DNA of 64,000 nt from Lunularia cruciata (lineage: Eukaryota > Streptophyta > Marchantiopsida > Lunulariales > Lunulariaceae): NCBI GenBank assembly GCA_948567375.1, contig OX419756.1, positions 30,580,333-30,644,332 on the forward strand. The letters run 5' to 3'. Position numbers and translations under genes: made by a program. Positions 27,997-62,530 of this stretch are shown piece by piece. Within the stretch, counting starts at the first letter, position 1, and the number at the start of each line of letters is the position of its first letter. The notes beneath the pieces are model-generated. The model was not told the origin of the DNA, did no database searches, and saw only the letters and a program-made list of their open reading frames with translations.

Positions 27997-28000
27997 AAAA

Positions 28001-28679: not shown

Positions 28680-28683
28680 GGAC

Positions 28684-31209: not shown

Positions 31210-31229
31210 GATAGCATACAAGGCCCTTG

Positions 31230-31770: not shown

Positions 31771-31873
31771 CTCAAGAGGAGAAAGAAGAGGGATTATGGA
31801 CAAAGGGTTTCAACTCAACATGTTTGGAAACATGAAAGATAAGATAGATGCGCATATGAGAAGGTAAAGCAAG

Positions 31874-33000: not shown

Positions 33001-33169
33001 AAACTTTTTATGGACCTCAGGGTCAATTGACACCATCATAATTGCCGCCGTGATGAGAGGAAGAGCCTTCAAATCAGGTCATTGTGATAGAGCATCAGGG
33101 ATGACATGGAACCAACCTGGTTTGTATTCAAGTTTGATGTTAAACAATTGGAGTTGCTCTTCCCATCAA

Positions 33170-33700: not shown

Positions 33701-33867
33701 CAAAAGGCACACTTTGACTTCTTGTAGTAAAATTTCCATTATTGTAGTCGTCTTAGGACTTCTCGCACATGATTCATGTGTTCTACCTCTATCTTGCTAT
33801 AGATTAAGATATCATCCAAGACCACCACCACGGACCGATCCAATATTCCATCCAACACCCGATGCAT

Positions 33868-34990
33868 CTAATCCATGAAGACTACTGGAGCATTAGTGAG
33901 TCCAAAAGGTAGAACTCTCCACTCAAAATGCCCATACCTTGTGCAAAAGGTAGTCTTTTGCACATACTCTCTATCAATAGGAATTTGCCAATAGCCGCTA
34001 CAAAGATCCAACTTGGAAAAATAGCTTGCTCCACTTAGTTGATCAAGCAAGTCATCAATCCAAGGCAAGGGATATGCATTCTTCACGGTTTGCTTATTAA
34101 GCCCGCAATAATCAATACAAAAATGAAGTCTTCTATCCTTCTTTGGAACAAATTGTACCGGTGCTCCCCAAGGAGAGGTACTATGTCGTATGAAGTCCTT
34201 CTCCAACAACTTTGTAAGTGTTGTTTGCAACTCCTCCAACTCTTTTGGTGAGAGCCAATAGATTGGTCTACTTACTGGAGTACTCCTTGGCAATAACTCA
34301 ATCTTGAAGAGCATACCTCGATAGGAGAGTAATCCCTTTGGCAGATCATCCAAAAAGACATCTGCAAAATCCTTAACTATCCGATCAACCATTGCTTGAT
34401 GAAGCTCTTGGCCCTCCATAGATTGTTCTTGTGCAATCGGCTTGATCCACACCGTGAATACAAACTTATCTTCCTCCAAAGCTTGCTCTATAGCTGCTTT
34501 ACTAACAAACTTCCCTTCTAGGGACTCATCTCTCTTCCAAGCTTGATCCTTGGTTGCCTTCTTGGCAAACTTCCCATCTTGGGACTCATCTCCTTTCCAG
34601 GTTTGCTCTATGGCTACCTTCTTGACAAACTTCCCATTTTGGGACTGACTATTCTTAGGTGTCTTACTCAGAGGTTCCAGACAACCTAATTGGAAATTCC
34701 TACCTTGGTGTTGTACTTGAATTTGGCGTCGGGTCCAATCAAATTGAACCTTATGATTTTCAAGCCAAAGTAGACCCAAAATGATATCATAGTGTAGAGG
34801 TGCCACTACAAACCTCATACACTCCAAATACTCCTTCCCAATCTTGAAGGTAATAGTATGCAAGGTGCGGAATGCAAAACCCTTTCTACCATCCGCCATC
34901 ATCAAACTACTTCCAATCATTGGCTTGATAGGAATACCCAATTCTTTTGCTACTTGCATAGACATGCAATTCTTTGAACTTCAAAAATCA
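33868..34990 (-). pseudogene. Family B protease and reverse transcriptase, broken
   Basis: A 365-codon open stretch. It covers the protease flap region ([12 protein letters not shown]), a connector with an imperfect internal repeat (GKFVKKAxxxQAW..., three units), and the RT fingers and palm with [30 protein letters not shown] and LPFGLTNAP. The YxDD part lies beyond a stop, near 33820. Confidence 0.85.
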
Positions 34991-35089
34991 TTATTCCATA
35001 ACCCCGATTAGATATCATACCTTGCAAGTGAAGCAAACTTGCATAGGTTGAGCCTTCAATCCCATTGGAACTAATCAAGCTCCCAATAG

Positions 35090-36010
35090 GCGACTCAAAA
35101 TCTCCTACTAGGATTCCTTGTTTCCCTGATCATTCTGCTCCACAACCTCCACCTGGGCAACTTGTTGAGGTTGTCTATTCTTGAGTGGACATTCAGCAAT
35201 GCGATGCCCCAATTGGCAACAATAAAAACAACCACCATTTTGTCGCAATTTCTCTCTATTTGCCATGCAAAGTGGTCTTCATTGAATGGCATCAATATCC
35301 ATTGGTGTTGGCTCCTCCACTTGTGTGTAGTGTATTGGTAGGCTTTGTGGAGGTTGAGGTTGAGGTCAAGACCAAGTTGTTGCCACCAAGGAATCAAAAT
35401 GTTTGGTCAACCACATGGCTTCCTCCAAGTGTTGTAGCTCTTGCATGGTTACCTTTAATTTGGTTCTTGCCTTCAAGCTCCTCACAAATTGATCCAAAGC
35501 TTCACCTTCCAATATATCTGGAATTTGCATGATGGTGTTTTGGAACTGCGTGATGTAACTTCTTACAGAGCCAATCTGTTTCAACTCTGCCAACTTATCC
35601 CATGTAGCTCGTGTGGCATTTATAGCTTAGAACCAATTATTTATTGTGCTCTTGAATTCTGCCCATGTCAATATTGGTACAAAAATTTGTCATTCAGCTT
35701 GGTCCACTTGGAATCTCCACCATAGCTTTGCTACTCCATCCAATTGGCTAGAAGCCAAGAGAATCTATTTTTGCTTGTCTTGTAGATTGGTAGCTTCAAA
35801 ATAACATTCACAATCAAACACAAAATTCTCCACTGCACCTAGAAGATTCTTGCCTTCAAATACCTTGGGTTTAGGGAATCTGATCCAATCTTCTCCTTCT
35901 TGAATTAGTACTCTCTCCACTTGCTCTTGTTGTCAAAGATCTTGTTCATCCAACAATCGAGTAAGGTGCTTGATTTGTTGCTGTATAGCAAGGATAACAT
36001 CGGGTATTGC
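35090..36010 (-). pseudogene. Family B gag with CCHC knuckle, broken
   Basis: The 35366-35593 frame resembles a retrotransposon Gag (QIGSVRSYITQFQNTI...EGEALDQFVRSLK). A CCHC knuckle (C-x2-C...GHRIAEC) is readable near 35190-35235. Confidence 0.75.
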
Positions 36011-36271
36011 CGCCATGGTTGTTACTCTATCACACCACTCCCAATCTATCTAATTTATTAACACATAGAAATAACATGTCCATCATTCTCCATAAGTTAC
36101 ACCCGGAAGCACCAAGGGTTCCTCAGATATGGTGATCATATGCATAAAATCCTGTCCAAAGGGCAAGGTGATGAATTTTGTGAAACAATGCTTGGGTAGT
36201 ACTTGGATGCAAAAATCCCAATGGTTTGGTGGAAGTAGATTTGGTGGTCCATAAATTCCATCCATCCCATT

Positions 36272-36287
36272 CCTGCTCTGATATCAA
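36272..36287 (-). other. Primer-binding site of the nested family B element
   Basis: Reads TTGATATCAGAGCAGG in element sense, directly inside the 5' LTR. It matches initiator tRNA-Met except for one G-to-A change. Confidence 0.85.
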
Positions 36288-36698
36288 TGTAAAAGACCAA
36301 ATCCGAGGAGAGAAATAGGAGAATGGAAATTCACATTGGGACACTTGAATGAGGGAAAGCTCCAAATATCTAGCATGAGCTTTGGCTTTGGTATTTATAG
36401 GTAGCATACAAGGCCCTTGAGAAGCTTCTCAAGTAGCTTCCTTTAGCCACTTTCTTAGAGTGCAAGCCAAGTTAACTAGGAAGCTTCTCAAGAAGCTTCC
36501 TTCTAGAAGCCGCCTACTTGGCATGCAAGCTAAGCTAATTAGAAGCTTCTAGAAGCTACCTACTTAGGGTGCAAGTTAACTAGTTGGGAAGCTTCCCAAG
36601 AACCTTCCTAGATGCTTTTGGAATATTCTAGGCTAATTTGGCTTATTCTTTACTTTGTTAGCCTTACTAGCTACGTCGCTAAACTCCATATTGTTACA
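36288..36698 (-). repeat. 5' LTR of the nested family B element
   Basis: 411 bases. Reversed TATA at 36392-36399; GAAGCTTC clusters at about 36420-36442, 36480-36510 and 36541-36557. Some pentamers are lost compared with the 3' LTR. Confidence 0.9.
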
Positions 36699-36703
36699 AG
36701 AAG

Positions 36704-37776
36704 GTCCTACCAGCAAACATTCCTTACTGGGGGTGCATGATCTGGAGAGACATGGGCCTATTCACTTGGTGATATCTGGATGGCTATGTTAGGGACATAC
36801 ATGTATGGGCCACAGTTTGGGTCTTTAGGATCCTTGTTCTAGTGTGTTTTGGGAGATGTTACGGATACTACAACATCTCCAGGTTCATCAGTTTGTTTCT
36901 CTAGCTTACCTTTTGGAGAACGTTCCTTTGATGGGTGATTCTCGCACCGGAGTGGTGGCAAGTACACATCAGGTCCATTCTTGGATGGGACCTACTGTAT
37001 TGTTAGATGCAACCAAAGTGGGATCACGTGCTCATTGTCTTTGTCTTTGGAAGACAAACCTCTTACCCAAAGAGGTTCTATAGCGTGCTTATGATGGGAT
37101 TCAACGACTTGACCACATCCTTGTTGATGATATCTTGGATGTTGGGCATAGTCTCAAACAATGGTAGTGGCTGATAGGTCACCTATGGCAATGGTGAACC
37201 TAATTGGACAGCCTAGAGCTGCATTTCCCACACTCATGAGTTTCCTAGGCTCTCATGCTTTTTGAGAGGGAGGACCTGGACTTGTTTGGGACTCACAATT
37301 ATAGCAGTTGGTGGAGCTTAACGTTGATGAGAGAGAGCGGGCAATGAGTTTTCGCACCGGTATTACCGCTGTTCCAGCAATGTTAGAGGCATCCATGCAT
37401 CAGGTGTTAGGTTAGGCTATGGACCTGAATTTTTTGATCTAGATTGTGAGCCTTGGCTTGGTAGATCAGCGTAGGATGCACTTGATATGCATCACCACTC
37501 GAACACTTGTGAGCCATGTGCCTATCGAGACAATTCAAGCACATGCTAGGGGCAATGGACTGAGTGTACATGGTATTCTTGGCACACAACCAGTAGCTAC
37601 TAGGGAGAGTGGTCTACTTGGAGTCCATCTAGGTGAGCGTGGGCTACTTGGATTACATCCTTGGTCCACTTGGGATGCAGCTAGAGGACATGTGGAGCTT
37701 GCAGCTAGAGTGGAGGGAGTTTTTCACACAAAGGTTGGGAGAGCATGACACTATTGCTCCCAAGGGCCTAGTGTAG
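36704..37776 (+). pseudogene. Family D methyltransferase, second half (copy D2)
   Basis: Resumes after the family B insertion. The catalytic Pro-Cys has become Leu-Cys followed by a TAG stop (near 36784-36793). The motif VI string LLENVPLMG (near 36916) and later blocks survive in pieces. The coding block ends at TAG CAG CCA (37774-37782), exactly as in the young copy. Confidence 0.8.
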
Positions 37777-38356
37777 CAGCCAGTCAGTATGTCTTCCACT
37801 CCTACTACAGTTACAACAAATACTTGGGAGCCAGATCTTGGACCCAAGCTTATTGGAGAGGAAAGACGGAGTGTTTGGAGGTTCTTGAGGAGCCACATGA
37901 GTTGTTTTGCCTTCAGTATGAAGGATTTGGGTGCACTACTATGGAGGAGCATGAGAGATAGTTGTTGGAGGTGTTTGAGAGGTTGAGATCTCATGGACTC
38001 AAATTACATCCTAGGAAGTGTAGGTTCTTCCACAAGCAGGTTGAGTATTTGGGTCACAATATCTACCCTTGAGGACTTGGTGTTCAGCAGACCAAGGTGG
38101 AGGCTATTGCACAAATTCCTTGGCCTACGGATGTGAGCAAAGTGTGAGCATTCCTTGGGTTGGTGAACTTCTATCACCGCTATGTTAGAGGATTTAGTGC
38201 CATTGCCAAGGCCTTGACAAAGCTGACCAAGCTTACAAATGAGTGGTGTTGGGGAGATGAGTAGGAGAGAGCTTTTGCACAGCTCAAGGAGAGGTTGACA
38301 TCTACTCCTATTTTGAGGAGACCAATCAGAGGAAGACCATTTTAGGTTCATATTTC
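37777..38356 (+). pseudogene. Family D pol fragments (copy D2)
   Basis: The N-terminal pol (CFAFSMKDLGA) is joined by a deletion near 37934 to the late RT palm and connection (HPRKCRFFHKQVEYLGH and onward). It ends inside RNase H, where a second deletion joins it to the A block at about 38356. Confidence 0.75.
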
Positions 38357-38706
38357 AGACCTAGCTCAAGTCTAGGGGTATACTTTCAAAATGCAGCTCT
38401 AGAGAGCTCACTTCTCTAATGTTGAGCCTTTGAGTTCTTGGCTATGGTGGACAAAGGCTGATGAGTGTCACCTGGATTCTCTTAGCTAGAGTGGGTGTGG
38501 CTTGACTGTAATCAGTGTCTAGTTGTTAGAAGTTTATAGAGTGACAAATCAAGTACTGATCTGAGTTGAGTTGAGTTGAGAGTGGTAAACAATCTGAGTA
38601 TTGTGGCACTTTAGACCCTTTGTATGACTTATGTGTGAGTTTTGCTTCTATAGTGTATGATGTTGACAATGATGTATGTTGTGTAGCAATGTCTATACAC
38701 ACGACA
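38357..38706 (+). repeat. 3' terminal A2 (partial) and B2 of copy D2
   Basis: The last part of block A (to about 38599) is followed by block B (about 38600-38706), which ends CACGACA before the ACCT target duplication. B1 and the start of A2 were lost in the deletion. Confidence 0.75.
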
Positions 38707-38710
38707 ACCT

Positions 38711-43622: not shown

Positions 43623-43626
43623 TCCT

Positions 43627-43735
43627 TGTCGTGCGTATATACATCGCTACACAACATACATCGCTGTCAACATCATACACTATAAAAGCACAACTCACAC
43701 ATAAGTCATACATAGACTCTAAAGTGCCACAATCG
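43627..43735 (-). repeat. Terminal block B2 of copy D1
   Basis: 109 bases, the 3' terminus of the element, ending GCACGACA in element sense. It matches B1 at 44274-44381 base for base as far as I can see. Contains TTTTATAGTG, a weak TATA-like string. Confidence 0.88.
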
Positions 43736-44270
43736 AGCTACCACGATCCACCGAGCTTGGAGATACCACCAACACTCAACGTTCCTGCACCCGATTTCCC
43801 CCTGACTTCACTTCTCTGATGTAATCAGATTGCTTAACATTCTCAACTCAACTCAACTCAGATCAATACTTGATCTGTCACTCTATAAACTGCCAACAAC
43901 TGGGCACTGATTACAGTCAAGCCACACCCACTCAAGCATAGAGAATCCAGGTGACGCTCGCCGGCCTCTGTCCACCATAGCCAGGAACTCGAAGGCTCAA
44001 CATCAGAGAAGTGAGCTCTCTGGAGCTCACTTCGAAACTATACCCCCTGGACTCGAGCTAGCCCTGAAACCCTAACGGTCCCGCTGACGGCACACTCGAC
44101 GGTGCAAACGGTGCAAAGTGACGGTGGGCCCCACCGTGAAGTCAGTACCCTGAACACGAAATCTAACCGTCGGAAAGTAGTCCCTGAGAAACAGCTAGAA
44201 TAACTCTAACTACTATCACTGGAACTCCAGTGTCCGAGCATCTAGATGCGGAACTACAAATGGCGTGACA
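43731..44270 (-). repeat. Terminal block A2 of copy D1
   Basis: 540 bases, TGTCACGCC...TAGCTCGATT in element sense. It overlaps B2 by the shared AATCG. It differs from A1 (53133-53672) at three transitions. Confidence 0.88.
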
Positions 44271-44273
44271 GCT

Positions 44274-44381
44274 GTCGTGCGTATATACATCGCTACACAA
44301 CATACATCGCTGTCAACATCATACACTATAAAAGCACAACTCACACATAAGTCATACATAGACTCTAAAGTGCCACAATCG
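44274..44381 (-). repeat. Block B1 of copy D1, before A2
   Basis: 108 bases, a copy of B2 placed internally just after the polypurine tract. The joint to A2 reads GCACGACA-GC-TGTCACG in element sense and contains the 10-bp palindrome GACAGCTGTC. Confidence 0.88.
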
Positions 44382-44390
44382 CCCCCCTAG
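44382..44390 (-). other. Polypurine tract of copy D1
   Basis: Reads CTAGGGGGG in element sense, directly upstream of B1. Plus-strand synthesis would therefore be expected to begin at B1, not at A2. Confidence 0.65.
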
Positions 44391-44546
44391 CTGGCGGTTA
44401 GGTCCCTCTAACTCCAGATAGCCATCTACTCTAAGTATATGGTATACCCTCTAATGGGCAAAGATCAGGAGGCCGGGTGCTATGGAGCCCCATCGTTAGT
44501 CGCCTGTCTGCAATCTATACCATATAAAGAATGAACTAGCTATAGG

Positions 44547-44697
44547 TCAAGTACATCTAGGACATAACCACTGTCCCTGAGGAACCACCGTGAGGGGAGG
44601 AGTCATACATGCCATATGCCATCCTCTCGAACAGCTATCACACACTAACATAGTAGCAGCTCCACCAGAAGAGAGCCACATAACATACACCTCAAGC
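44547..44697 (-). pseudogene. C-terminal PHD finger of family D pol, frameshifted in this copy
   Basis: The first Cys pair (codons at 44689 and 44680) is in the pol frame. An extra AG within 44669-44674 shifts the frame. In the shifted frame follow Cys 44642, Cys 44633, His 44618, Cys 44609, Cys 44564 and Cys 44555, then TGA at 44547-44549. Spacing is C-x2-C...C-x2-C-x4-H-x2-C-x14-C-x2-C, with Trp before the last pair, which is the C4HC3 pattern of PHD fingers. PHD fingers read histone H3 tails. The D3 copy (2029-2113) has the first six ligands in one frame, so the shift is specific to this copy. Confidence 0.82.
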
Positions 44698-47554
44698 CTG
44701 CACGTACAAGTGCCAAGCTTGGGTCCATAGTACCATCAATGTTTGGAAGGTGGCATGGCGCACAATTGCGCACATGATCCTTCCAAACAACACCATCACG
44801 TCCTTCTAACACAAGGACTCCAGATGGCAAAACCTCGCGCACTCTCAAGATAGTGCGGCCTATAGAAACATCAAGTGTCGTCGGTGCTGTCTGCTGTAGA
44901 TATACATAGTCGCCTGGATGAAATCGACGGATCGAGGGTCTATAACCTCCTCCTCGAATGGTAGCATAGCGTAAAGTATCTCTATGCTGAGCAATTGCCA
45001 AGTTCTCGAAGGCCATCGGCATCACTCTCTGAAAGATCTCTGCCCGCTGAGAACATGCGCTCATCCATACATCAGGGTCATCCAAGTCCAAAACTACAGT
45101 AGCATCTCGACAAATGGCTGCAGGTAAATCTGGATCTCGTCCATAGAGTAGAAAGTATGGAGAGAAGGATGCTAAGGAGGCTTGCCGGCTGAACCGATAG
45201 CCCATGGCCAACCAAGGTAACTGGAGATCCCAATCTCCCAAGTGGCCTCTCTGCAAACCATACTTTCGCAATCCTCTCTTCACCGTCTGAACCACTCTCT
45301 CTGCTAAGCCATCTGCCTCAGGGTGATGTCGGGATGTAGTACGATGATCAATCAAAGCCTTGTCACACAAGACCTGAAACTCTCCCAAGAACTCTGTACC
45401 CTGATCAGTCAAAACCTCAGCTGGTGCACCAAAATGACTAAGAACTCGATCCAGGAACGAGTAAGCTGTCCCTTCACTAGACCTGTCAGGAAGTGCCACC
45501 AACTCAATCCACTTGGAGAAGTGCTCCACCATCACCAAAACATACCGATGATGTCTCACAGTCAGCGGTAAAGGTCCGGCAAAGTCCAAACTCCAACGGT
45601 AACCCAATCCCATGATAGGTAATGGGTGTAACTGTGGCGTAGGAGCATTGAATGATGCTCTAACTCGGTCACAAACCACACATCTGGCAACAAACTGCTG
45701 TACCTCGGTCTGCATACCGCGCCACCAATAATGACTCTGGAGTAAGCTATATGTACGCTTTACTCCAAAATGTCCTAGCTCCTCATGAGCATGACGGACC
45801 AACTGTGGTCTCTGTGATGGAAGTGGTACTACTCGCACTCTACCATCCTCCCATACACGCAAAAGGTGTCTACCCTCCAATCTGAACCGTCTGGCTCGCT
45901 GAAGAACACGGTCTCTCTCCTTGGCCCCAACTGTGCCACCCACAACACCAGTGCGAAGATAGTCCATCACTAAGACATCATCATGAATGTCTCGCTGAAC
46001 TGTACCAATATCTTCACTCTCTGGATCTGTGACCTCAATAACTCCTCCTGTATGCGCTGAGAGAGATACCACCAAAGTCTTTGCAAATATACACAGAAAG
46101 GCCGATGCATGCCAACCTGGCACCATCTCCTCATCTGTCTCACCATGCCAACGTGCTCCGGTCTGATCCTGCTGGCTGGGACATGGGTTTCTACTCAACC
46201 CATCTGCATCACGGTTCACCACTCCAGGTCTGTGAACAACCGTGAAATCATACTCCTGTAAAATCAGAGCCCATCGTGCAAGCTTCCCTGAAAGCTTGTC
46301 GGACTCCATCAACCACTTCAGCGGCTGATGATCAGTGATGAGAGTGAAGGGGTTACCAAATAGGTAACATCGGAAATGTGCTACTGCCCAAACTGCTGCC
46401 AAGCACTCTCCCTCATATGAACTATACTTCGCCTCCGCTGAATTGTTGGAGCGACTAGCATAGGCCACCACAAACTCCTTCTCCTCATCATCATGCTGGG
46501 TGAGCACCGCTCCAAGCCCCAACATACTCCAATCAGTGTGAACCTGAAATGGTCGTCCCCTGATCGGTCTCCTCAAAATAGGAGCAGATGTCAACCTCTC
46601 CTTGAGCTCTACAAAAGCTCTCTCCTGCTCATCTCCCCAACACCACTCATGTGTAAGCTTGGTCAGCTTCGTCAAGGCCTTGGCAATGGCACTAAATCCT
46701 CTAACATATTGGCGATAGAAGTTTGCCAACCCAAGGAATGCTCGCACTCTGCTCACATCCGTAGGCCGAGGAATACGTGCAATAGCCTCCACCTTGGTCT
46801 GCTGAACACCAAGTCCTCCGGGGTAGATAGTGTGACCCAAATACTCAACCTGCTCATGGAAGAACCTACACTTCCCAGGATGTAATTTGAGTCCATGAGA
46901 TCTCAACCTCTCAAACACCTCCAACAACTGTCTCTCATGCTCCTCCACAGTAGTGCTATACACCAAAATGTCATCAATATAGCACCGAGCAAAATCCAGT
47001 CCAGCTAGGATCCTATCCATGACCCTCTGGAACTCAGCAGGAGCATTCTTCAACCCAAATGGTAAGAATCTCCACTGATATAACACATCCTTGCCGTGAG
47101 GATCAATAGCCCAAAATGCTATCTTGGACTTATCTTCCTCCCTGATCGGCAACTGATGATATCCCGCTCGAAGATCCAAAGTACTGAAGACCTTTGCATG
47201 CCCAATCGCATCAAAAATCTCCTCCGGTGTAGGCATGGCATACCGATCAGCCCTGGTCTGTCGGTTGATAGGACGGTAATCTCCACACATCCGCCTATCC
47301 GTATAGTTGCCATGCATATCCTTCTTGGCTGGCATCACTGTCGCTGATGCATACTCTCCATGTGAAATCTCCACCAAACCAGCCTCAAAAAGGTCACTAC
47401 TCCGGCTCTGAATCAATGTCCTCTCCATCTCACTATATCGATAAGGACGTCGGAAAATAGGTGTGTCGCTAGTCAGCTCAATCCGTATACCAGGTCCCTT
47501 CAGAGCACCCAAATCCTTCATACTGAAGGCAAAACAACTCGTGTGACTCCTCAA
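44645..47554 (-). CDS. Family D Pol block: reverse transcriptase, RNase H, integrase
   Basis: An open frame of 969 codons in the same frame as the methyltransferase block upstream. It begins with a TTG, not an ATG, 36 codons after a TAG, so it is more likely reached by readthrough than by its own start. Order: RT with FSTLDLRAGYHQL and YIDD at residues 192-195; RNase H with VHTDWSMLGLGAVLTQ and ITDHQPLKWL; integrase with an HHCC finger (HFGVKRTY...CVVCDR), LDFAGPL with Asp657, the DQGTEF block and HPEADGLAE; a linker with DGVVWKDHV; and the first Cys pair of a PHD finger at 956 and 959. The last residues (LLVELLLC) are out-of-frame sequence after a 2-base insertion. Its sequence resembles Ty3/gypsy Pol without a chromodomain. 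Confidence 0.9.
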   Translation of the reverse strand: MRSHTSCFAFSMKDLGALKGPGIRIELTSDTPIFRRPYRYSEMERTLIQSRSSDLFEAGLVEISHGEYASATVMPAKKDMHGNYTDRRMCGDYRPINRQTRADRYAMPTPEEIFDAIGHAKVFSTLDLRAGYHQLPIREEDKSKIAFWAIDPHGKDVLYQWRFLPFGLKNAPAEFQRVMDRILAGLDFARCYIDDILVYSTTVEEHERQLLEVFERLRSHGLKLHPGKCRFFHEQVEYLGHTIYPGGLGVQQTKVEAIARIPRPTDVSRVRAFLGLANFYRQYVRGFSAIAKALTKLTKLTHEWCWGDEQERAFVELKERLTSAPILRRPIRGRPFQVHTDWSMLGLGAVLTQHDDEEKEFVVAYASRSNNSAEAKYSSYEGECLAAVWAVAHFRCYLFGNPFTLITDHQPLKWLMESDKLSGKLARWALILQEYDFTVVHRPGVVNRDADGLSRNPCPSQQDQTGARWHGETDEEMVPGWHASAFLCIFAKTLVVSLSAHTGGVIEVTDPESEDIGTVQRDIHDDVLVMDYLRTGVVGGTVGAKERDRVLQRARRFRLEGRHLLRVWEDGRVRVVPLPSQRPQLVRHAHEELGHFGVKRTYSLLQSHYWWRGMQTEVQQFVARCVVCDRVRASFNAPTPQLHPLPIMGLGYRWSLDFAGPLPLTVRHHRYVLVMVEHFSKWIELVALPDRSSEGTAYSFLDRVLSHFGAPAEVLTDQGTEFLGEFQVLCDKALIDHRTTSRHHPEADGLAERVVQTVKRGLRKYGLQRGHLGDWDLQLPWLAMGYRFSRQASLASFSPYFLLYGRDPDLPAAICRDATVVLDLDDPDVWMSACSQRAEIFQRVMPMAFENLAIAQHRDTLRYATIRGGGYRPSIRRFHPGDYVYLQQTAPTTLDVSIGRTILRVREVLPSGVLVLEGRDGVVWKDHVRNCAPCHLPNIDGTMDPSLALVRAGLRCMLCGSLLVELLLC

Positions 47555-47656
47555 GAACCTCCAAACCCTCCGTCTTTCCTCTCCAGTAAGCTTGGGTCCA
47601 AGATCTGGCTCCCAAGTATCCTCTGTAACTGTAGTAGGAGTGGAAGACGTACTGAC

Positions 47657-47665
47657 TGGCTGCTA
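47657..47665 (-). promoter_or_regulatory. Candidate stop-codon readthrough site between methyltransferase and Pol
   Basis: TAG CAG CCA in element sense, with no frame change on either side. This fits the UAG-CAR-YYA context known for tobamovirus-type readthrough. It is conserved at 37774-37782 in the decayed copy D2, although the flanking codons changed. Confidence 0.55.
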
Positions 47666-50600
47666 TACTGGGCCCTTGGGAGCAATGGTGTCATGCTCCC
47701 GACCACTAGAGGTCCCAACCTCTGTGTGAAAAACTCCCTCCACTCTGGCTGCAAGCTCCATACGTCCTCTGGCTGCATCCCATGTGGACCAAGGGTGTAA
47801 TCCAAGTAGCCCACGCTCACCTGGATGGACTCCAAGTAGACCACTCTCCCTAGTAGCTACTAGATGTGTCCCAAGAATACCATGTCCACTCGGTCCATCG
47901 CCCCCAGCATGTGCCTGAATTGTCTCGATAGGCACAGGGCTCACAAGTGTCCGAGTGGTGATGCCTATCAAGCGCATCCTACGCTGCTCTGCCAAACCAA
48001 GGCTCACAATCCAGGTCAAACAGTTCAGGTCCATAGCCTGACCTAACACTTGACGCCTGGATGCCTCTGACACTGTTGGAACAGCGGTAATACCGGTGCA
48101 AAAACCCATCGCCCGCTCTCTCTCATCAGCATTGGGCTCCACCAACTGCTGTAACTGTGAGTCCCAAACAAGTCCAGGTCCTCCCTCTCGAAAAGCATGA
48201 GAGCCTGGGAAACTCATGAGTGTGGGAAATGCAGCTCTAGGCTGTCCAACTAGGTTCACCACTGCCATGGGTGACCTATCAGCCACTACCACTGTCTGAG
48301 ACTGACGCCCAACATCCAAGATATCATCAACAAGAATGTGGTCCAGTCGCTGAATCCCATCATAAGCACGCTGTAGAACCTCTCTGGGTAAGAGGTTTGT
48401 CCACCAAAGACGAAGACGATGAGCCCGTGATCCCACTCTGGCTGCATCTAACAATACAACAGGTCCCATCCATGAATGGACCTGATGTGTACTCGCCACC
48501 ACTCTAGTGCGAGAATCACCCATCAATGGAACGTTCTCCAAAAGGTAAGCTGGAGAAACAGACTGATGAACCTGGAGATGTCGTAGTATCCGTAACATCT
48601 CCCAAAACACACCAGAACAAGGATCCTGAAGACCCAAACCGCGGCCCGCACGTGTATGTCCCTGACATGGCCATCCAGAAATCACTAAGTGAACATGCCC
48701 ATGTCTCTCTAGGTCATGCGCCCCCAGTAAGGAAATGTCTCCTGGTAAGGCCTTCTGGTAACCTCTGACTGCTGACATCGGTAATAACTCCGGATACCGA
48801 TAGGCCAAGTGTGCCACATGATGTAGAGAGACTCGCCTAGCAGTCTCATCTCTCTCTACATACAAGTACCTCTGTACTCGGATACCCGCCTGTAATACCG
48901 CAGCTAGTCCGGTGCTGATCCCACCAAACAACTCCAATAGGCATATGCCCTCTACTGGATACTGCCAAGCAATGAGTGTGGTATCCAGAGGTGTCAAAGC
49001 AATCGCCTCTGGAGGCTCATCCTCACACTCATCCCCTGATGGTACAAAGGCTCCACTCCAAGCCTGCTGCACCAACTGATCTGCATGCTGCTGCAATGCC
49101 TCCTCTGAACTCCACAATGGAACATCCAAGGTGGATGGAACAATCCCACTCGTACTCCATAGCCGAGTGATCTCCTCTGGTATTGGAGTATCCTCTGCAT
49201 GGGCGTTCACCTCCAACAAGTCACCAGGCCAAGTAACTGCACCGCTGAAAGCCAAAACTGATGCTGCCATGGTCCCGGACTGTAGTGAGCCAAGACTGCC
49301 ACTACTGAAGCGTACTGGTAGACGACATACCCGTCCCTCACCAGACTGCCAACCAGGTCTATAAGAGGCTGTCTCCTCCCAATAGTCAATACTGAAACCC
49401 ATAGGGTATAACACTGCTCCCCCAACTAGCACATCATAGGACTCAGCTATCGTCGCAATAGCCTGAGCTCTCACCACCGAGCTATCAGTGGGATGACCAG
49501 GCTGAACCTGGACAACAAGCTCTCCACGCGTGATGTACTGTGTCGAACCACCACCAAGAGATGTCTGGATCTGAAATGGACACCTCTCCACATCGGTCTT
49601 TCGTAACTCCAGACCAACAACTGCAGCCTTCCCCAACATAAGGGGCTGCGCACTAGAGTCTAACAAGACTCTCTGTGGTGTATAGACCTTCCCTGAAGGT
49701 CCTACCAAACGAAAGATCCCCCTTTGGTTATCCAATAGGACAACACCAGGTGTAAACCGCGCTCTCTCAAAGGCCGGTCTAGCTGGCAACTCCTCCAGTC
49801 TAGCCGCTGCTGCCTGCCATAAACCACTGGTCGCTGAACGGATCCCATGCTCCTCAACCAAGTCAGCTCCACTACCAACCACCTCTGCTCTAGTAGTAGG
49901 AACTGCACCATCCCTACTCTCACACAACATGGCAGCCAACCGGAACACTGGGGCTGGGTCCACTCCCAATGTAAACATGTCACTGGCTGAAAATAAAGGA
50001 TGCCGCATAATCAGCTGAGCTGCCCCCAACATCATGCTAGACTCAGTCTGTGTAGTAGCAAGTGGCTGACTAGCAGGTACTCCATCAAGTACTCCATCAC
50101 CACCTACCACACCTGCACTGGGACGTCTAGGAACCATGGATGTTGTCTGCAATGCCTCAGATAGCGTGAAAGATTGGGGAAGTCTGACCTGTCTCCCAAC
50201 CTCTCCTCTCTGTGGGTCCAACTCCACTGATGCTCCTCTAGGCTCTGGAGCACGTACTGCACTCCTAGTCACTGCTGCAGATGCATCCACCTGTGCTGCT
50301 CCGCACATGAAGTCCAAAGCATCTCTATCACCAGCATATGAGGTGGAAGCCTCAGCACCCGAATCTGATCTCCTATGAGCAATAGCCATACTAGCCAATC
50401 TCTGCTCCAACTGCTCAATCCGAGTAGCCATAGCTGTGTCAGAAGTAAGGGCAGGTACTGCACCCCTACTAGGTGTAGATCCTCTACCACCACCTCTACC
50501 ACCTCGTCCTCCATGAATTGGAGCTCCTCTACTACCTGCCATAGCAGCCCTACCACTCCGTAACTCCGGGTGTAGGTCAAAACACCGGTCACTAGTATGA

Positions 50601-50734
50601 CCAAATCTATGGCAGTGCTCACACTGCCTCTGTGCTGGCTGTGATGCACCAGAGGTATCAGGTCCGCTGCCCTGAGTACACTCTCTCCTATGGTGAGGTC
50701 CACCACAAGTCCAACAAGCAACACCACCACTCAC
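47663..50734 (-). CDS. Family D block 2: zinc knuckles, retropepsin and DNMT3-like cytosine-5 DNA methyltransferase
   Basis: An open frame of 1023 codons that starts with GTG right after TAG CAG CCA and lies in frame with gag, so it is probably part of a Gag-Pol polyprotein. Residues 7-19 and 38-51 form zinc knuckles; the second is a perfect CX2CX4HX4C. A protease core lies at 356-366 with Asp359, but this copy reads DSS where D2 reads DSG. The methyltransferase covers about 590-920: motif I LELFGGISTGL (about 600), catalytic Pro-Cys in SGWPCQGH with Cys690, ENV at 733-735, an Arg-rich RAHRLRLWW motif VIII, PTLMSF before the last part, and motif X QVLGQAMD near Gly898. The motif order is unpermuted, so it is not DRM-like. 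The spacing, GIxTGL...GIxVxRY and the lack of BAH or chromodomains point to DNMT3. It would transfer methyl groups to DNA cytosine C5. All catalytic motifs are present. Confidence 0.88.
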   Translation of the reverse strand: MSGGVACWTCGGPHHRRECTQGSGPDTSGASQPAQRQCEHCHRFGHTSDRCFDLHPELRSGRAAMAGSRGAPIHGGRGGRGGGRGSTPSRGAVPALTSDTAMATRIEQLEQRLASMAIAHRRSDSGAEASTSYAGDRDALDFMCGAAQVDASAAVTRSAVRAPEPRGASVELDPQRGEVGRQVRLPQSFTLSEALQTTSMVPRRPSAGVVGGDGVLDGVPASQPLATTQTESSMMLGAAQLIMRHPLFSASDMFTLGVDPAPVFRLAAMLCESRDGAVPTTRAEVVGSGADLVEEHGIRSATSGLWQAAAARLEELPARPAFERARFTPGVVLLDNQRGIFRLVGPSGKVYTPQRVLLDSSAQPLMLGKAAVVGLELRKTDVERCPFQIQTSLGGGSTQYITRGELVVQVQPGHPTDSSVVRAQAIATIAESYDVLVGGAVLYPMGFSIDYWEETASYRPGWQSGEGRVCRLPVRFSSGSLGSLQSGTMAASVLAFSGAVTWPGDLLEVNAHAEDTPIPEEITRLWSTSGIVPSTLDVPLWSSEEALQQHADQLVQQAWSGAFVPSGDECEDEPPEAIALTPLDTTLIAWQYPVEGICLLELFGGISTGLAAVLQAGIRVQRYLYVERDETARRVSLHHVAHLAYRYPELLPMSAVRGYQKALPGDISLLGAHDLERHGHVHLVISGWPCQGHTRAGRGLGLQDPCSGVFWEMLRILRHLQVHQSVSPAYLLENVPLMGDSRTRVVASTHQVHSWMGPVVLLDAARVGSRAHRLRLWWTNLLPREVLQRAYDGIQRLDHILVDDILDVGRQSQTVVVADRSPMAVVNLVGQPRAAFPTLMSFPGSHAFREGGPGLVWDSQLQQLVEPNADERERAMGFCTGITAVPTVSEASRRQVLGQAMDLNCLTWIVSLGLAEQRRMRLIGITTRTLVSPVPIETIQAHAGGDGPSGHGILGTHLVATRESGLLGVHPGERGLLGLHPWSTWDAARGRMELAARVEGVFHTEVGTSSGREHDTIAPKGPV

Positions 50735-50743
50735 TGGCTGCTA
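50735..50743 (-). promoter_or_regulatory. TAG CAG CCA context before the zinc-knuckle block
   Basis: The same nine bases as at 47657-47665, again in frame. In copy D2 the matching codons are CAA CAA CTA, so here the stop may be a CAG-to-TAG mutation and not an ancestral site. Confidence 0.35.
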
Positions 50744-50824
50744 CTGCCCCGAAAATGAGGGTAAGGGTCTAACTCCACTAGGCCCTCCACTCGCTCCATA
50801 GGATCTGGGCTGTCCACCCTGTCC

Positions 50825-51949
50825 TCAAAAACCAACTGGGCGTGGTGCACTCTGCTGCATTCTAGAAGAAGTCACAACCGTGGATGAGGTCTCTCTACCA
50901 AATCCAGATGTCACCACTCTCTTCTCCACCATGTTGAGCTCAATACGCTCAGCCAAACCAAAGACTACTGCCAAAGTGGGCGAAGTAGCCTGCAACAACG
51001 TAGCATCACGAACTCTACGTCGCAACTCCCTGTCCAGTATCCCATACCAAAACTGGACTGCCTGGGCCTCAGTAACTCCCTGAGTGAAACTGATCAGCCG
51101 CCTCATGCGAGTGTATGCCTCGCGTAGGCTCTCTCCAGCCTTCCGCTGGAACTCCTGCAAGCTCCTCAGCTTGTCAGTCCGCACTCCCTGGTAGTTCTGC
51201 CTCAAACATAGGAAGAACTCAACCATGGGGTTAAACCCCGGTACCACACCACCTCCTGCAGCGGTACCTCCACTCGTAGTAGCACTATCTCCAGCTAGTG
51301 CACCTCCACTAGCTCCACCAACACTACTCGAGCTAGAACTCGTAGGTACAGCCGACCTACTCCTGGCCACCGAACCTGAAGTGATGGAGACATAGTGTGG
51401 AGACCAATACTGTCTCCATAACTCAATCTCCTCCAAATGAGCTCTCCTGAACTCATGGTAGTCATCCATCGGTGGACCTTCCAAGTGCTGAAACAACCCC
51501 TTCCATGCCATGAAGGGTGTGAACAAAGTCGGGTTCCGCATCTGCTGCAGATCACACCAACTATCAAACTCCTGGATGAAGTCATCCAACTCAATGGTAC
51601 CCACTGTACCAGAGTAACGCCTAGGGCCTTTGGAGTCCCCATAAATCTCGTCCATGTCCCACAACAACGGTGCGGACACACCAAGTGCACTCTCAACTGA
51701 ATCAGCTCCTGTGTCGAACTCCAACTCAGAGTCAATCTCCTCCCTCACTGGGACCTGAGATACAGGCTGATACCGAGCACCACTCCGAGTAAACCCACTA
51801 CGTACTGCAGGGCTAACTCCTCTGGAATCTCCAAAGAACTCCGTCGTGACAAAGTAACCACACCAACAAACCCGAACCACCAACTGCAACAGCAAGTCGC
51901 AACCGCAAGTGCCCCACCAAGTGCCAACACCACCGCGTGCCAACACCAA
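50825..51949 (-). CDS. Family D Gag block
   Basis: A 374-codon open stretch with a retrotransposon Gag core. LDDFIQEFDSWCDLQQM through FMAWKGLFQHLEG and the RSLQEFQRKAGESLREAYTRMRRL region resemble Gag capsid helices; a Ser/Gly-rich linker lies between. It opens with a TTG just after an in-frame TAG; the first ATG is Met99 (51655). Copy D2 shares recognisable sequence upstream of that ATG, so a non-AUG start or a spliced leader is possible. It ends with TGA GGA (50825-50827), shared with copy D2. The following 27 codons are open and lead in frame to the zinc knuckles. Confidence 0.8.
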   Translation of the reverse strand: MVLARGGVGTWWGTCGCDLLLQLVVRVCWCGYFVTTEFFGDSRGVSPAVRSGFTRSGARYQPVSQVPVREEIDSELEFDTGADSVESALGVSAPLLWDMDEIYGDSKGPRRYSGTVGTIELDDFIQEFDSWCDLQQMRNPTLFTPFMAWKGLFQHLEGPPMDDYHEFRRAHLEEIELWRQYWSPHYVSITSGSVARSRSAVPTSSSSSSVGGASGGALAGDSATTSGGTAAGGGVVPGFNPMVEFFLCLRQNYQGVRTDKLRSLQEFQRKAGESLREAYTRMRRLISFTQGVTEAQAVQFWYGILDRELRRRVRDATLLQATSPTLAVVFGLAERIELNMVEKRVVTSGFGRETSSTVVTSSRMQQSAPRPVGF

Positions 51950-53132
51950 CTAAAACACCACCCACTAATGTAACTCTAACCGAGATAACTACACTAGGGG
52001 AAGGGCAACCTGTAACCTGCCATCATAACACGCACTCTCACGGTCTGCAGGTCATCACTTCCTGCCTCACCGGAGAGAAACAAAGGTAGTCTGACTGGTC
52101 ATCACTCCAGCCTCACCACCGAGAGCACACCAGAGCACCAACGCTCAAAAGTCAAGGCACCTCACACAAACGTGGTGCACAAACAGGAAGTAGAGAATGG
52201 AGGGGATCCAATCACAAGAAATCTAAACGAAAACCCTCCATCTCATAACACAACACGGGACTGACTCTGCCACCATTTGGCATTTGACATAAGAGTAGTT
52301 CGTATCTAAGTCCTAAGCTACTAGGATCACCAAGAATGGGATCAAACTGCCTCTCCTAGCCAAAGCTACATGTGTATAGATAACAGTGGCACAGTCACTA
52401 TGACAACAAGTGAGGGTGGACCAGTTGGCTAGGGCACCAGTCTAGGAACAAGAGATCTAGGGGTCAAACCCTGTTGCGCACAATCTAGCAAGAAAGGCAG
52501 ATTTTGCCAACCAATGACCAAGATCTACACTAAACTAGCTAGCCTCACGCCAACAAGCTGGCTTGCTGGCCCTTTTGGCCCTTCTAGGCCTTCGTAGCCT
52601 CTCATAGCCCACAGCCCTATGCCTCGAAGCCTCGAAACGCCGAAATTCAGCCAAATGAGGCCTTTCTTGTTGCCACTTCGAACCTCCTCCAAAATTGGCG
52701 AAACTTCTCCAAATCTGCGAAACTCCTCCAAACTAGCGAAACTTCTTCAAATCTGGCCAAACAGCGAAACTCCTCCAATTCTGGCCCAAAATCTGACATA
52801 AATTTGACGTAAAATCTGACGTAAACCCTAAAGATGGATGTCCGCCAAATCCCCCGCTAACTTTCCACTCGAGCCAAATTGACAAAACGGGTTTTTCCAA
52901 ATCACAATTTCATGAGAAGAGCTTTCCAACTCCACCTTCAATTTCACTTTCTGAGCCCAACTCGCAGCAAATTGGTCCTGCCTTCACCTCCTGAGCTCAA
53001 AATCACAACATTGCTCAAAAATTGCTCCTTCTTTGCTCAAAATTTGGCCAGCGCTTCCGCACACCGTCTGCCTAACTGCCAAATTTGCATCAACTACACG
53101 AGCTTCTGCACACTAGGGAAACATAGAACCTG
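51950..53132 (-). other. Leader of family D copy D1
   Basis: Non-coding stretch between A1 and gag, also present in D2 (19028-20078). On the plus strand it has runs of C(C/G)AAA-type repeats (52660-52790) and the tRNA-like insert. No standard TGG primer site follows A1 directly; TGGTAGCTCGATT inside the end of A1 is the nearest candidate. Confidence 0.55.
52410..52482 (+). other. tRNA-like / SINE-head-like sequence in the family D leader
   Basis: Box-A-like TTGGCTAGGGCACC (about 52425-52438) and box-B-like GGGGTCAAACCCT (about 52460-52472) at tRNA spacing, with a possible stem TCTAG/CTAGG between them. The anticodon loop is too long for a working tRNA. It runs antisense to the element and is also found in copy D2. 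Confidence 0.5.
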
Positions 53133-53672
53133 AATCGAGCTACCACGATCCACCGAGCTTGGAGATACCACCAACACTCAACGTTCCTGCACCCGATTTC
53201 CCCCTGACTTCACTTCTCTGATGTAATCAGATTGCTTAACATTCTCAACTCAACTCAACTCAGATCAATACTTGATCTGTCACTCTATAAACTGCCAACA
53301 ACTGGGCACTGATTACAGTCAAGCCACACCCACTCAAGCATAGAGAATCCAGGTGACGCTCGCCGGCCTCTGTCCACCATAGCCAGGAACTCGAAGGCTC
53401 AACATCAGAGAAGTGAGCTCTCTGGAGCTCACTTCGAAACTATACCCCCTGGACTCGAGCTAGCCCTGAAACCCTAACGGTCCCGCTGACGGCACACTCG
53501 ACGGTGCAAACGGTGCAAAGTGACGGTGGGCCCCACCGTGAAGTCAGTACCCCGAACACAAAATCTAACCGTCGGAAAGTAGTCCCTGAGAAACAGCTAG
53601 AATAACTCTAACTACCATCACTGGAACTCCAGTGTCCGAGCATCTAGATGCGGAACTACAAATGGCGTGACA
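53133..53672 (-). repeat. 5' terminal block A1 of copy D1
   Basis: 540 bases starting TGTCACGCC in element sense. It leads directly into the leader (TTCAGGTTC) with no block B behind it, unlike A2. Confidence 0.9.
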
Positions 53673-53676
53673 TCCT

Positions 53677-59278: not shown

Positions 59279-60264
59279 CCAATGATTGAAACTCTAAATG
59301 CCTTGCATGAGCTTGGGCTTTAGTATTAAAGAAAATCTAAGTACAAGACCCAAGAAGTTTCCAAGGAAGTTTCCTTCTAGAAGCTATCTTTTTGGGAGTG
59401 CAAGCCAAGCTAACAATTTATTTGGCATACAAGTTAAGCTAACTGTTTACTTAACATATAAGTTACTCCATTATTAGGAAGTTCTTAGAAGCTTCTCACC
59501 AATAACCTTTATAGATTCTTTCAGAATGTTTGACAAAGAAGCTTCATAGACGTGTCTAGAATATTTTAGGAAATTATACCTCCTTTTTGCTATATTTAGC
59601 TTTTTTAACTCAATATTATCATATATTCTTCCACTCCTAGTTGGTAGTGTCATTGATACCATAGAATCTTCAAAATTTTGTATGGCCCGTTGAGCATTTT
59701 GGAGATGAGAAAGAGGTCCCTATGTGTATCATGAAGGAGATATCCTTTCTAAAGGATCTTATACTAGATTTGTCATTGGAGTCCATGTAAGATGTATCTA
59801 TGCAAGAATAGGGTTGCTTTTGTATTCTTCATGATCATTAATAGGGGATTGGAAGAGTAGGAGGTTGGATTTGAGTAGGGAAGGAACATGAGTTAGAAAC
59901 AAAGGGTTTTAACATTGAAACATGGAAGATAGAATGGATACTCATATGACTAGGAGTGCAAGTTTGTAGGCAACAAGAGAAATGATTTGAGTAATATCAC
60001 GTGGACTTATCTAATTGGAAGTACGTTTACAAACTTGGGTGTCAAGAATGATAGAGATGTTACTAGAGGAAAAATTTTCTAGATCATAAACTTGAAAGGT
60101 TAGATCATGATGATGTCTATCAACATATTGCTTCTGTCAAATTTTCACAACAAGAAGATGAGATCTGGTGTAAGATGAAGATAATATGATCAAGAAGGTA
60201 AAAGTATGAGGAACATAAGATAACCATAGAGTAAGAAAGAATTGGGAACAAGTGGATCTTGTCC
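59279..60264 (-). mobile_element. Family B fragment: truncated 3' LTR and end of pol
   Basis: Positions 59279-59620 match the GAAGCTTC-containing part of the B LTRs (eroded). Positions 59621-60264 match the chromodomain and integrase end (31523-32180). It is interrupted at 60264 by the family A insertion. Confidence 0.65.
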
Positions 60265-60956
60265 TGTAACACCCATTTGTGCATGTGTGTGGTATTGTGA
60301 TATTTAGCTTGGTATTACAAGTACTTAAGAGATATTATTTATATAGAGATAAAGGATGGTTCTATATTAGTCATGGTTAGCTAAAGTTAGTCATAGCTAA
60401 GATAGATGGGACCTTACTTTAGAGGAAGTAGAAAAGATGAGCACCACTATTTTGGATTTTAGTGTGTTGACTTGGTATTATTCCTAGGTGTTTGGCTTTG
60501 GGGAAAGAGTTGAGAACTCTTGGGCCCGCAAGCCTTTTTGTTTTGGATTCTTCTTTAGTCCAAGGATAGCCCATGTGAAGGAATCCTTGCTTTAGTGGTT
60601 GGGTCAAGATAAGACCACATGCTTAGGGGAATATGCCCATGTGAATGGATATTCCTTTCTACTTTTTGACTTTACTTGACTTTTAGTCTAGTAACTTGAG
60701 TTACTACGGTAATTAGTAACTTTGGTACGTAACTATTTCACAAGTATATAAACAAGGAGTGAGGAGGTACTCATCATCCTTTCATTTGCAACTATCTCTC
60801 TCTCATTGAGTTCTCTAGTGAGCAATGTCTTGAGTCTTGGAGTGTTAGCCTTGGAGGAGTATGATGGAGTTGGGGTTCCTTGCCTTCTTAGTCCATGGTG
60901 CGCTACCATAATAGCCATCAGAGGTTCATCCTGAGTGAGAGACAGGCCGGCTCACA
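60265..60956 (+). repeat. 5' LTR of the second family A element
   Basis: 692 bases, 13 longer than the LTRs of the other copy because of an extra ACCACATGCTTAG near 60613-60625. Otherwise almost identical. Confidence 0.93.
60745..60752 (+). promoter_or_regulatory. TATA box of the family A LTR
   Basis: TATATAAA in AAGTATATAAACAAGG, about 210 bases before the LTR end; a reasonable core promoter for the genomic RNA. Confidence 0.6.
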
Positions 60957-60960
60957 TTTT

Positions 60961-60979
60961 TGGTTCCGTTGCCGGGACC
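60961..60979 (+). other. Primer-binding site of the second family A element
   Basis: TGGTTCCGTTGCCGGGACC, identical to 27978-27996; tRNA-Asp-like. Confidence 0.65.
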
Positions 60980-61792
60980 TCTCTAGAAGGCAAGATAATG
61001 TTCCGCGTCCAATTCTACATTAGGCAGAAGGAGGCTATGAGAGCTCACTTGGAGAGAACATTAGGAGAGGAGAGGGCTGAACTTATGTTAGAGAACCAAG
61101 ATCCATTTGTATACCTTGTAGTTCATTATGATGTCTTTGAGGTGATTTTGTACATCTTGTACACATGAGAGGAATTGGAGAGATTGTGTGAGGTGGATTG
61201 CAGATTTTGGGGATTAAGGTGATTTTGGGCAAAATCTCAAGTTTGAGATCTGGACTTGAGATTTCTACACATGATAGCTTGGGTTATCTTTCAGTTAGCA
61301 CACTTGAAATTATTGAGAGAGCTTCTATGCGCACTGGGCTAGAATTTTTGAAAGTTGATAGGGTAAAGTGCTCCCGCAACTGCATGCTCTCTGGAAAATT
61401 GTACAGAGTCTGCCATTTCTTCAATTTTCAGTAAATTGTCCTGAAAATTTCCAAGAAAATTCAGTGCATTGTATCCTACCTGCTGCCACAAAAATTAGAG
61501 AGAGATCGTTTTTGCGCAGGGCGTGATGAGTTTTTGAAGTGAGGGGGGTGGTTTTCAGACCAAATCTGAAATATGGGTGCTGAATAGAAAGGTGTCTAGG
61601 CCAAATGGCTCAATGAAAAGATCTGAAATTTTGCAGGGAGGGACGCCCTGGAGTTGTGATCAAGTGTGCAAAATTTCAGAGGACTGTGACGTATTGGTTG
61701 GGAGATTTGAATGACATTGTGAGGAAGGGTCAATTCTGCAGAGTGGAGATCTCATGCATGAGAAGTTTGAGATCAACAAAAAGCATGTTTGA

Positions 61793-62290
61793 GTGTTTAG
61801 ATTCATCTTGGGGAACATGGAGAGTCATCAAGAGTGGAAATTGAGATTATGCAAGGTTCCCCAAGGGTTTGAGGTGATTGTAGGGGTGGATTTGAGGAAA
61901 AGAGAGTTTACAATAGAATTTGAAGAGAGTGTTGAGAGGATCCAAAAACCTACACCACTTGGAGGAAAGAGTGAGTCTAAGTGCTTTCTATGTGGAGAGA
62001 AGGGACATAAGGCAAGTTCATGTCCATTGACCTTTGAGAGCAAGAGATTGAGGGAAAGGAGAGGCTTACTTGACTTGGGTTTGCATGTTGGACCTTCTTC
62101 ACCAAGATTGGGAGGGAGAAGATCTAAGACCAAAGAGTTGTGTGAGGTTTGTGGAGTTGAAGGACTTCCAAAAGGACATGAGTGTAGTGGAGTAAAAGCA
62201 CTTTTGGAAACTTTGGTGAAGGATCTTGGAGAGAGTCTTAGTACAGCTACAGAAATACTACCACCTTCATCAGCTAGTTCTCAAGATTAG
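61793..62290 (+). CDS. Leader zinc-knuckle ORF of the second family A element
   Basis: A 165-residue twin of 26667-27164 with the same start, stop and CFLCGEKGHKASSC knuckle. Its preservation in two copies with independent insertion sites supports it as a family feature, though both copies are so young that this is weak proof of selection. Confidence 0.6.
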   Translation: MFRFILGNMESHQEWKLRLCKVPQGFEVIVGVDLRKREFTIEFEESVERIQKPTPLGGKSESKCFLCGEKGHKASSCPLTFESKRLRERRGLLDLGLHVGPSSPRLGGRRSKTKELCEVCGVEGLPKGHECSGVKALLETLVKDLGESLSTATEILPPSSASSQD

Positions 62291-62530
62291 TGATGGAGAT
62301 AATCTTTCAACTTATGGATAAACTATCCATGAGAGTTAGATTAATATGCACTCTAGGATTTGATGTTGCTATAGAAATCTTGGAGCAACCTGAACCTTTT
62401 GTGTTCCCTAGAGTGGATTATTCTCAGATGGTGTTAGTCATGTATATACTCTATTAATAATAGAGTGAGAGAAAAGAAAAGAGGAAAAAAAAAAAAATTT
62501 GAGAGAAAAGAAAGATAGTGAGGGGTTAAG

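Follow-up and report, generated by a model that had tools for sequence, protein, structure and literature searches.

Why should a retrotransposon encode its own DNA methyltransferase, and what could such an enzyme do for it? The question is raised by a stretch of 64,000 nucleotides from Lunularia cruciata (GenBank assembly GCA_948567375.1, contig OX419756.1, positions 30,580,333 to 30,644,332 of the forward strand), hereafter the window, in which an earlier note had recognised a Ty3/gypsy element with a DNMT3-like cytosine methyltransferase. Judged by its sequence, the element belongs to the Ty3/gypsy lineage known as KnitGypsy-Dnmt3 and forms a young, multi-copy family. In the layout read from the sequence, Gag, protease and DNMT3-type methyltransferase share a frame; a TAG in a readthrough-type context comes next, and behind it lie reverse transcriptase (RT), RNaseH, a DDE integrase and a PHD finger.

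Copy 1 extends from 43627 to 53672 on the minus strand, on which all of its features lie, and comprises repeats A1, B1, A2 and B2 with a 4-bp target duplication. The methyltransferase is encoded in an open reading frame (ORF) of 1023 open codons at 47663-50734, together with two zinc-knuckle motifs, recognised by eye, and a retropepsin region (residues 330-475, 49310-49747; core VLLDSSAQPLMLG at residue 356). The DNMT3-like C5-methyltransferase domain covers residues 597-920 (47975-48946), and the motifs and residue numbers given for it earlier proved exact on re-reading: LELFGGISTGL starts at residue 600, SGWPCQGH at 686 (catalytic Cys690, 48665-48667), ENV spans 733-735, RAHRLRLWW starts at 770 and QVLGQAMD at 895. 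Motifs I, IV, VI, VIII and X are present in order, with both the Cys and the Glu; this order is the conventional one, unlike the rearranged order of DRM. The domain scored as a C5 methyltransferase in Pfam (DNA_methylase, 27.1 bits against a cut-off of 22), and its best solved relatives were DNMT3A, with E 1e-7 for the single protein and 9e-21 for a nine-sequence family profile. The nearest profile and fold were those of DNMT3A/B, not of DRM, bacterial enzymes or DNMT1, in agreement with the DNMT3-like assignment made before.

The Ty3/gypsy assignment was likewise borne out by Pfam. ORF2 (44645-47554) yielded RVT_1 (3e-31), RT_RNaseH (2e-36), Integrase_H2C2 (1e-18) and rve (1e-13), so that protease, RT, RNaseH and DDE integrase follow each other in Ty3/gypsy order. 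The claim of a single frame from protease through methyltransferase to RT stood in its first part, as protease and methyltransferase do share an ORF, but RT lies in the next ORF, behind a TAG. The complete order in copy 1 is A1, leader, Gag, protease/methyltransferase ORF, TAG, RT-RNaseH-integrase, PHD, polypurine tract, B1, A2 and B2. The Gag ORF (50825-51949), with a weak Pfam Retrotrans_gag match under the cut-off (E 0.009), terminates at a stop seldom found in other copies. Two extra in-frame stops in the Gag-to-protease part of copy 1 are absent from 27/28 and 26/28 of the other aligned copies, the retropepsin active-site triad is DSS where 27 of the 29 aligned copies have DSG, and the PHD finger (44550-44672; Pfam PHD, 2.9e-10) lies outside the frame of ORF2.

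The in-frame stops and the shifted PHD frame of the window copy would be expected if a host gene fragment had been inserted once, by chance, into a broken element. This explanation is hardly credible in view of the family. In a genome search covering 566 Mb in 74 contigs, 45 copies were scored among 21,230 first-look candidates and no others scored; all 45 carried the same protein, with an identity of 97-100% across the full 1023 residues or nearly so, as proposed when the enzyme was called a family trait. Loci were assigned to 30 copies, chosen as the best-scoring and not at random, and 29 of equal length were aligned; the methyltransferase ORF was stop-free in 15 of the 29, which answers the suggested genome-wide check for intact copies. 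The enzyme keeps its place between protease and RT in the other copies, and the same order was found in Marchantia, Sphagnum, Closterium and Klebsormidium proteins. Neither of the two outcomes that the earlier note had named as refuting was observed. A whole PHD motif in a single frame was observed in 6 of 10 copies, although the pattern may miss variants.

The stop between methyltransferase and RT (TAG CAG CCA, 47657-47665) is equally regular: in all 29 aligned copies the TAG is followed by CAGCCA, and RT resumes behind it in the frame of the methyltransferase ORF. In L015, a related element on a separate contig, the equivalent reads TAG CAA TCA. Both match the hexanucleotide CARYYA, which favours readthrough, above all in viruses of plants (PMC4132726). 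If the TAG is leaky, the enzyme would be made together with Gag.

Relatives of the element were sought with residues 590-920 and with a profile; in both protein searches, scoring was limited to the 8000 candidates with the most shared words. The first gave 53 matches, many of them from Marchantia polymorpha and others from Calypogeia, Sphagnum, Closterium and environmental contigs, and the second gave 88, Riccia included. For ORF2, the best 120 of 1784 RT/integrase matches were listed, and further relatives without the methyltransferase may exist beyond them. The nearest named proteins among these 120 were from liverworts (Riccia, 83% identity over 54%; Calypogeia, 78% over 78%; Marchantia, 77% over 44%), and Klebsormidium nitens and Tetstr1, a label that we take to stand for Tetraselmis, were also among them; the Tetstr1 enzyme is at most a 12-bit remnant.

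Domain mapping of 227 proteins revealed two layouts, type I with the enzyme upstream of RT and type II with the enzyme between RNaseH and integrase; the full type II form, RT-RH-DNMT-IN-PHD, was found in 26 proteins. Trees were built from the window element and those 36 of 224 homologous proteins with enough of the DNMT, RT and RNaseH domains. Among these 37 elements, type II formed one group in both the RT-RNaseH tree (SH-aLRT 99) and the DNMT tree (93). When L015-L018 were added to the RT tree, which has one outgroup row and Klebsormidium in the ingroup, three enzyme-less relatives fell inside type II (100/99) and therefore most likely lost the enzyme. L017 and L018 do not differ in the RT region, and as L016 starts shortly before RT, its lack of the enzyme covers only the stretch after RT. 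In L016-L019, PHD fingers were found by tblastn in 4/4 and by HMM in the 3/3 tested, with no enzyme match. These four loci lie in bacterial or archaeal sediment bins and are probably eukaryotic contamination of public bins. The same probably holds for L015 (ORF2 identity 65%), a 9.3 kb contig filed under a cyanobacterial bin, whose end repeats its first 127 bases (circle of 9158 bp), as expected when an assembler meets a family of repeats.

Could the enzyme have been captured recently from a DNMT3 gene of the host? At least two DNMT3-type genes with several exons, L090 and L093, are present in the host, besides a DRM gene with rearranged motif order (L091) and a CMT-like exon recognised by eye (L092). 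The two DNMT3-type genes were not recognised among the matches of the two protein searches and were located by the genome search; they share the DNMT3 type and the conventional motif order with the element but differ in their multi-exon structure. In a DNMT tree with both of them, the host DRM and human DNMT3A, the 37 retroelement enzymes all fell into a single clade (100/100), which has a long branch and includes neither the two host genes nor DNMT3A; its sister position to the host DNMT3 genes reached only 91/39, with four reference rows and long branches. Given this clade, and the single type II group in both trees, a separate recent capture is very improbable. The simplest reading is one capture in the ancestor of the green-lineage elements, one relocation and at least one loss. 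The RT and DNMT of the window element are related to those of the Klebsormidium element of the same layout, which places it in the KnitGypsy-Dnmt3 lineage.

Two further origins were considered and rejected. A viral one was dismissed, as the similarity of 14 viral_contigs loci (L001-L014) is limited to parts of the methyltransferase domain, at 26-47%, and a second scan of viral_contigs, made with the ORF2 alignment, left none of its 32 candidate stretches confirmed. A bacterial contaminant is contradicted by the 45 dispersed copies.

PCQ, ENV and AHRLR are present in 28, 29 and 28 of the 29 aligned copies, respectively, and methyltransferase conservation tracks that of RT (666 pairs, r 0.79); being kept about as well as RT, the methyltransferase therefore serves the element somehow. 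The dN/dS values between copies 1 and 2, 0.31 and 0.63 for two pieces of the methyltransferase, are blurred by the decay of copy 2 and are no proof of selection. In most type II enzymes (e.g., P0037 and P0038), motif IV reads ECQ instead of PCQ; among 33 type II rows with a letter at the proline position, 25 have E.

The ends of the element are unusual for its class. Copy 1 begins with TG, ends with CA and is flanked by AGGA on both sides (53673-53676 at the 5' side, 43623-43626 at the 3' side), as expected of Ty3/gypsy elements, but two complete long terminal repeats are lacking: the 5' end has A alone and the 3' end B-A-B. Repeat A1 (53133-53672) starts with TGTCACG, has no B after it, and is 99.4% identical to A2 (43731-44270) over 540 bases, the three differences all being transitions. 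B1 (44273-44381) and B2 (43627-43735) are 100% identical; B2 ends in CACGACA and has five bases in common with the end of A2. At the B1/A2 junction (44264-44279), both element ends stand back to back around GC. This 16-mer, CACGACAGCTGTCACG, has one CG per arm and is identical in L015 at 7048-7063.

Most copies read showed the same arrangement. Among 30 five-prime ends, 28 had a whole A, one an A fragment and one none, and B in the same orientation was absent from all 30, one of which has an inverted B fragment beside A. Ten three-prime ends comprised eight with B1-A2-B2, one with B only and one cut off in A2. Exact 4-bp target duplications were recognised by eye in eight of these ten copies (AGGA, GTGC, AAGG, TAGA, ACTT, CACT, AAGG and TTGC); of the other two, one retains three of the four duplication bases and one has no 3' end. 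A2 consists of the first 448-449 bases of A in eight of the nine copies that have it and of 540 in the window copy. The polypurine tract AGGGGGG, immediately 5' of B1 (44382-44388 in copy 1), is shared by nine of ten copies, the tenth having one additional G. The A-int-B-A-B order is that of the split direct repeats of DIRS/PAT elements. When the three ORFs of copy 1 were compared with Pfam, the rve integrase was found but no tyrosine recombinase. The ends combine split direct repeats of the PAT type with the kind of integration mark that a DDE integrase leaves.

How such ends arise was considered in terms of a circle model, in which classical reverse transcription gives [B-A]-int-[B-A], the ends join and the integrase cuts the circle at a B-A boundary. 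The polypurine tract directly before B1 is in its favour, as is the joint of A2 and B2, which in most copies read is AATCTGATT followed by ATTGTGG. Random cutting, however, predicts A-B-A-int-B in about half of the copies, and none of the 28 whole-A five-prime ends has B directly before A. Copy 5, an A-int-B form with target duplication, fits a one-repeat circle, but it also fits a simple recombination of B1 with B2.

An A-int-B-A-B copy keeps its own ends fused at the B1-A2 junction, and the integrase should therefore be able to cut there. The methyltransferase might then serve integration itself, not an escape from silencing, if timely CG methylation of CACGACAGCTGTCACG shielded the internal site or licensed the real ends. 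This idea is doubtful, and we give it little weight. If true, it would explain the methyltransferases of unrelated split-repeat lineages, adenine-type in DIRS/PAT and DNMT3-type in SymbioDIRS and the Gypsy lineage.

The fate of older copies bears on the suggested escape from silencing. The decayed second copy reported earlier is real and has the same gene in the same place, in three plus-strand pieces: 18476-20876 (A1, leader and gag; target duplication ACCT), 28680-31097 (gag end, protease and methyltransferase start) and 36693-38707 (remaining methyltransferase and parts of RT and A2, with B2). It is about 87-93% alike to copy 1 and is split by two nested insertions. Copy 3 is a decayed 3' part (652-2979, plus strand) with RNaseH, integrase, B1, A2 and B2. 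With copy 1 as a stand-in for the ancestor, C-to-T changes on either strand in copies 2 and 3 affected 29-38% of CG, 23-33% of CHG and 4-9% of CHH sites in four comparisons, and numbered 70-169 per comparison against 16-38 in reverse. Other window elements, taken as a control, offered too little to judge by: one pair had 15 substitutions, and in two repeat pairs (23 and 52) no more than 8 CG and 2 CHG sites were present. The C-to-T pattern is the kind of mark left by CG and CHG methylation. CHG is a chromomethylase context in plants, and host silencing therefore seems to have reached both copies. For older copies, these scars speak against the suggestion that the enzyme lets the element escape stronger silencing.

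One of the insertions in copy 2 is a second Ty3/gypsy element (20875-28679), with 100% identical end repeats of 679 bp and an intact Gag-Pol ORF of 1608 amino acids, and therefore a very recent insertion; the stretch 60261-64000 is 99.2% identical to it. The methyltransferase of copy 2 is interrupted by an element of the long-terminal-repeat type at 31098-36698 (repeats 31098-31522 and 36288-36698), and a related repeat lies at window positions 1-648.

Taken as a whole, these observations would be explained by an element of the KnitGypsy-Dnmt3 lineage whose methyltransferase, made at Gag levels, methylates new cDNA before or during integration; we give this explanation slightly better than an even chance. 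Most ribosomes would halt at the TAG and make the methyltransferase with Gag, while a minority Gag-Pol fusion would carry RT and integrase, and both products would enter the particle. There, before or in the course of integration, the methyltransferase would modify fresh cDNA, chiefly at CG, and new copies would thus arrive pre-methylated. Packaging with Gag and action on cDNA would fit the position of the enzyme. The integrase would join the start of A and the end of B, the same ends that meet around GC in the internal junction, and the PHD finger would direct integration via a histone tail. The host would then maintain and extend CG and CHG methylation, silencing the copies. SymbioDIRS enzymes can methylate CG de novo (PMC5890265).

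Several observations weigh against this explanation. Readthrough of the TAG is suggested by its context and conservation, and in other type I elements (e.g., P0125, P0132 and P0152) a single open frame holds both enzyme and RT; the stop layout is therefore restricted to the subgroup of the window element. The relatives L017 and L018 exist without a methyltransferase. The piN/piS of the methyltransferase, 0.56, is moderate and not below that of Gag. No clear tRNA primer binding site was seen by eye after the 5' repeat. The mean A1/A2 divergence within copies, 1.1%, is only slightly lower than the 1.6% between copies, values so close that regeneration of the repeats in each cycle is not supported. 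The Klebsormidium enzyme produced no methylation in yeast, a result its authors called inconclusive, as human DNMT3B failed too (PMC5890265).

The yeast result would also suit a domain that no longer targets DNA and has been retained for a different function, such as RNA methylation or a structural part of the particle, and so would the glutamate in place of the motif IV proline in type II. We consider this improbable, since PCQ, ENV and AHRxR are kept in 28-29 of the 29 window-family copies and the fold is that of DNMT3. Unlikely too, if slightly less so, is action on host chromatin around the insertion site, where the PHD finger would bring the integrase, the site would be silenced and host damage limited. 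Reader and writer are combined in one element, and a PHD finger lies 3' of the integrase in 91 of the 132 mapped integrase-bearing proteins and in L018, which lacks the methyltransferase, so that chromatin reading would be old in the lineage. In the window group, however, the stop parts enzyme from integrase, and most of the enzyme would not be joined to the latter. Cytosine methylation of the element's own cDNA remains the explanation that we prefer.

Apart from the elements described above, the window contains an open frame of 401 amino acids at 11993-13198 with the look of a membrane fatty-acid desaturase (HDCGH, HRTHH and HVVHH boxes, by eye).

The role of the enzyme becomes testable in a plant, since the family is young and multi-copy and has relatives in the genetic model Marchantia; the position of the stop predicts an enzyme made at Gag levels. 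A DDE integrase with split repeats typical of tyrosine-recombinase elements presents a replication puzzle. DIRS/PAT elements are not known to have target-site duplications, and the window family has 4-bp ones. Chromoviruses carry a chromatin-reading chromodomain at the integrase C-terminus, the place where the window element has its PHD finger.

Elements of this kind have been known since 2018 (PMC5890265), and the reports from dinoflagellates and a charophyte alga that the earlier note mentioned are indeed found there. A 2025 source assigns DNMT3 "in streptophytes and dinoflagellates" to "LTR Copia and DIRS" elements, and bryophytes are not named in its available text (PMC12344493); the available text of a Marchantia review (PMC9516144) and of a Physcomitrium DNMT3 paper (PMC6453930) contains nothing on methyltransferase retrotransposons. 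In searches of PMC papers, which did not extend to subscription journals, figures and supplements, no report was found of DNMT retrotransposons in bryophytes or of a Gypsy integrase bearing a PHD finger; Ginger transposases can carry a PHD finger (PMC2836005). As far as these searches go, the many-copy young liverwort-type family, its readthrough layout, PHD finger and target duplications are new, as are the conserved B1/A2 junction and the span of one lineage from Klebsormidium to liverworts.

PAT and DIRS elements share the split direct repeats, and DIRS also has a putative methyltransferase domain (PMC4157794); they differ in their tyrosine recombinase (PMC4157794), and the DIRS methyltransferase is of the adenine type (PMC5890265). 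SymbioDIRS-Dnmt3 of Symbiodinium shares a Dnmt3-type enzyme in Pol and A-coding-B-A-B repeats with the window element but has a tyrosine recombinase, not a DDE integrase, and belongs to an unrelated element class (PMC5890265). KnitGypsy-Dnmt3 of Klebsormidium nitens is closest, with Gypsy RT and integrase, a Dnmt3-type enzyme in the Pol frame and repeats "the same as that of a DIRS retrotransposon" (PMC5890265, Fig. 4 legend). A PHD finger is not mentioned in the main text of that paper, but the K. nitens protein P0184 does carry one. Another K. nitens protein, P0159, found in the ORF2 protein search, has the order PR-DNMT-RT-RH-IN and matches ORF2 of the window element with 48% identity over 94%. 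Compared with KnitGypsy-Dnmt3, the window family is of liverwort type, has a stop between enzyme and RT as well as 4-bp duplications, and is present in 45 scored copies that are 97-100% alike.

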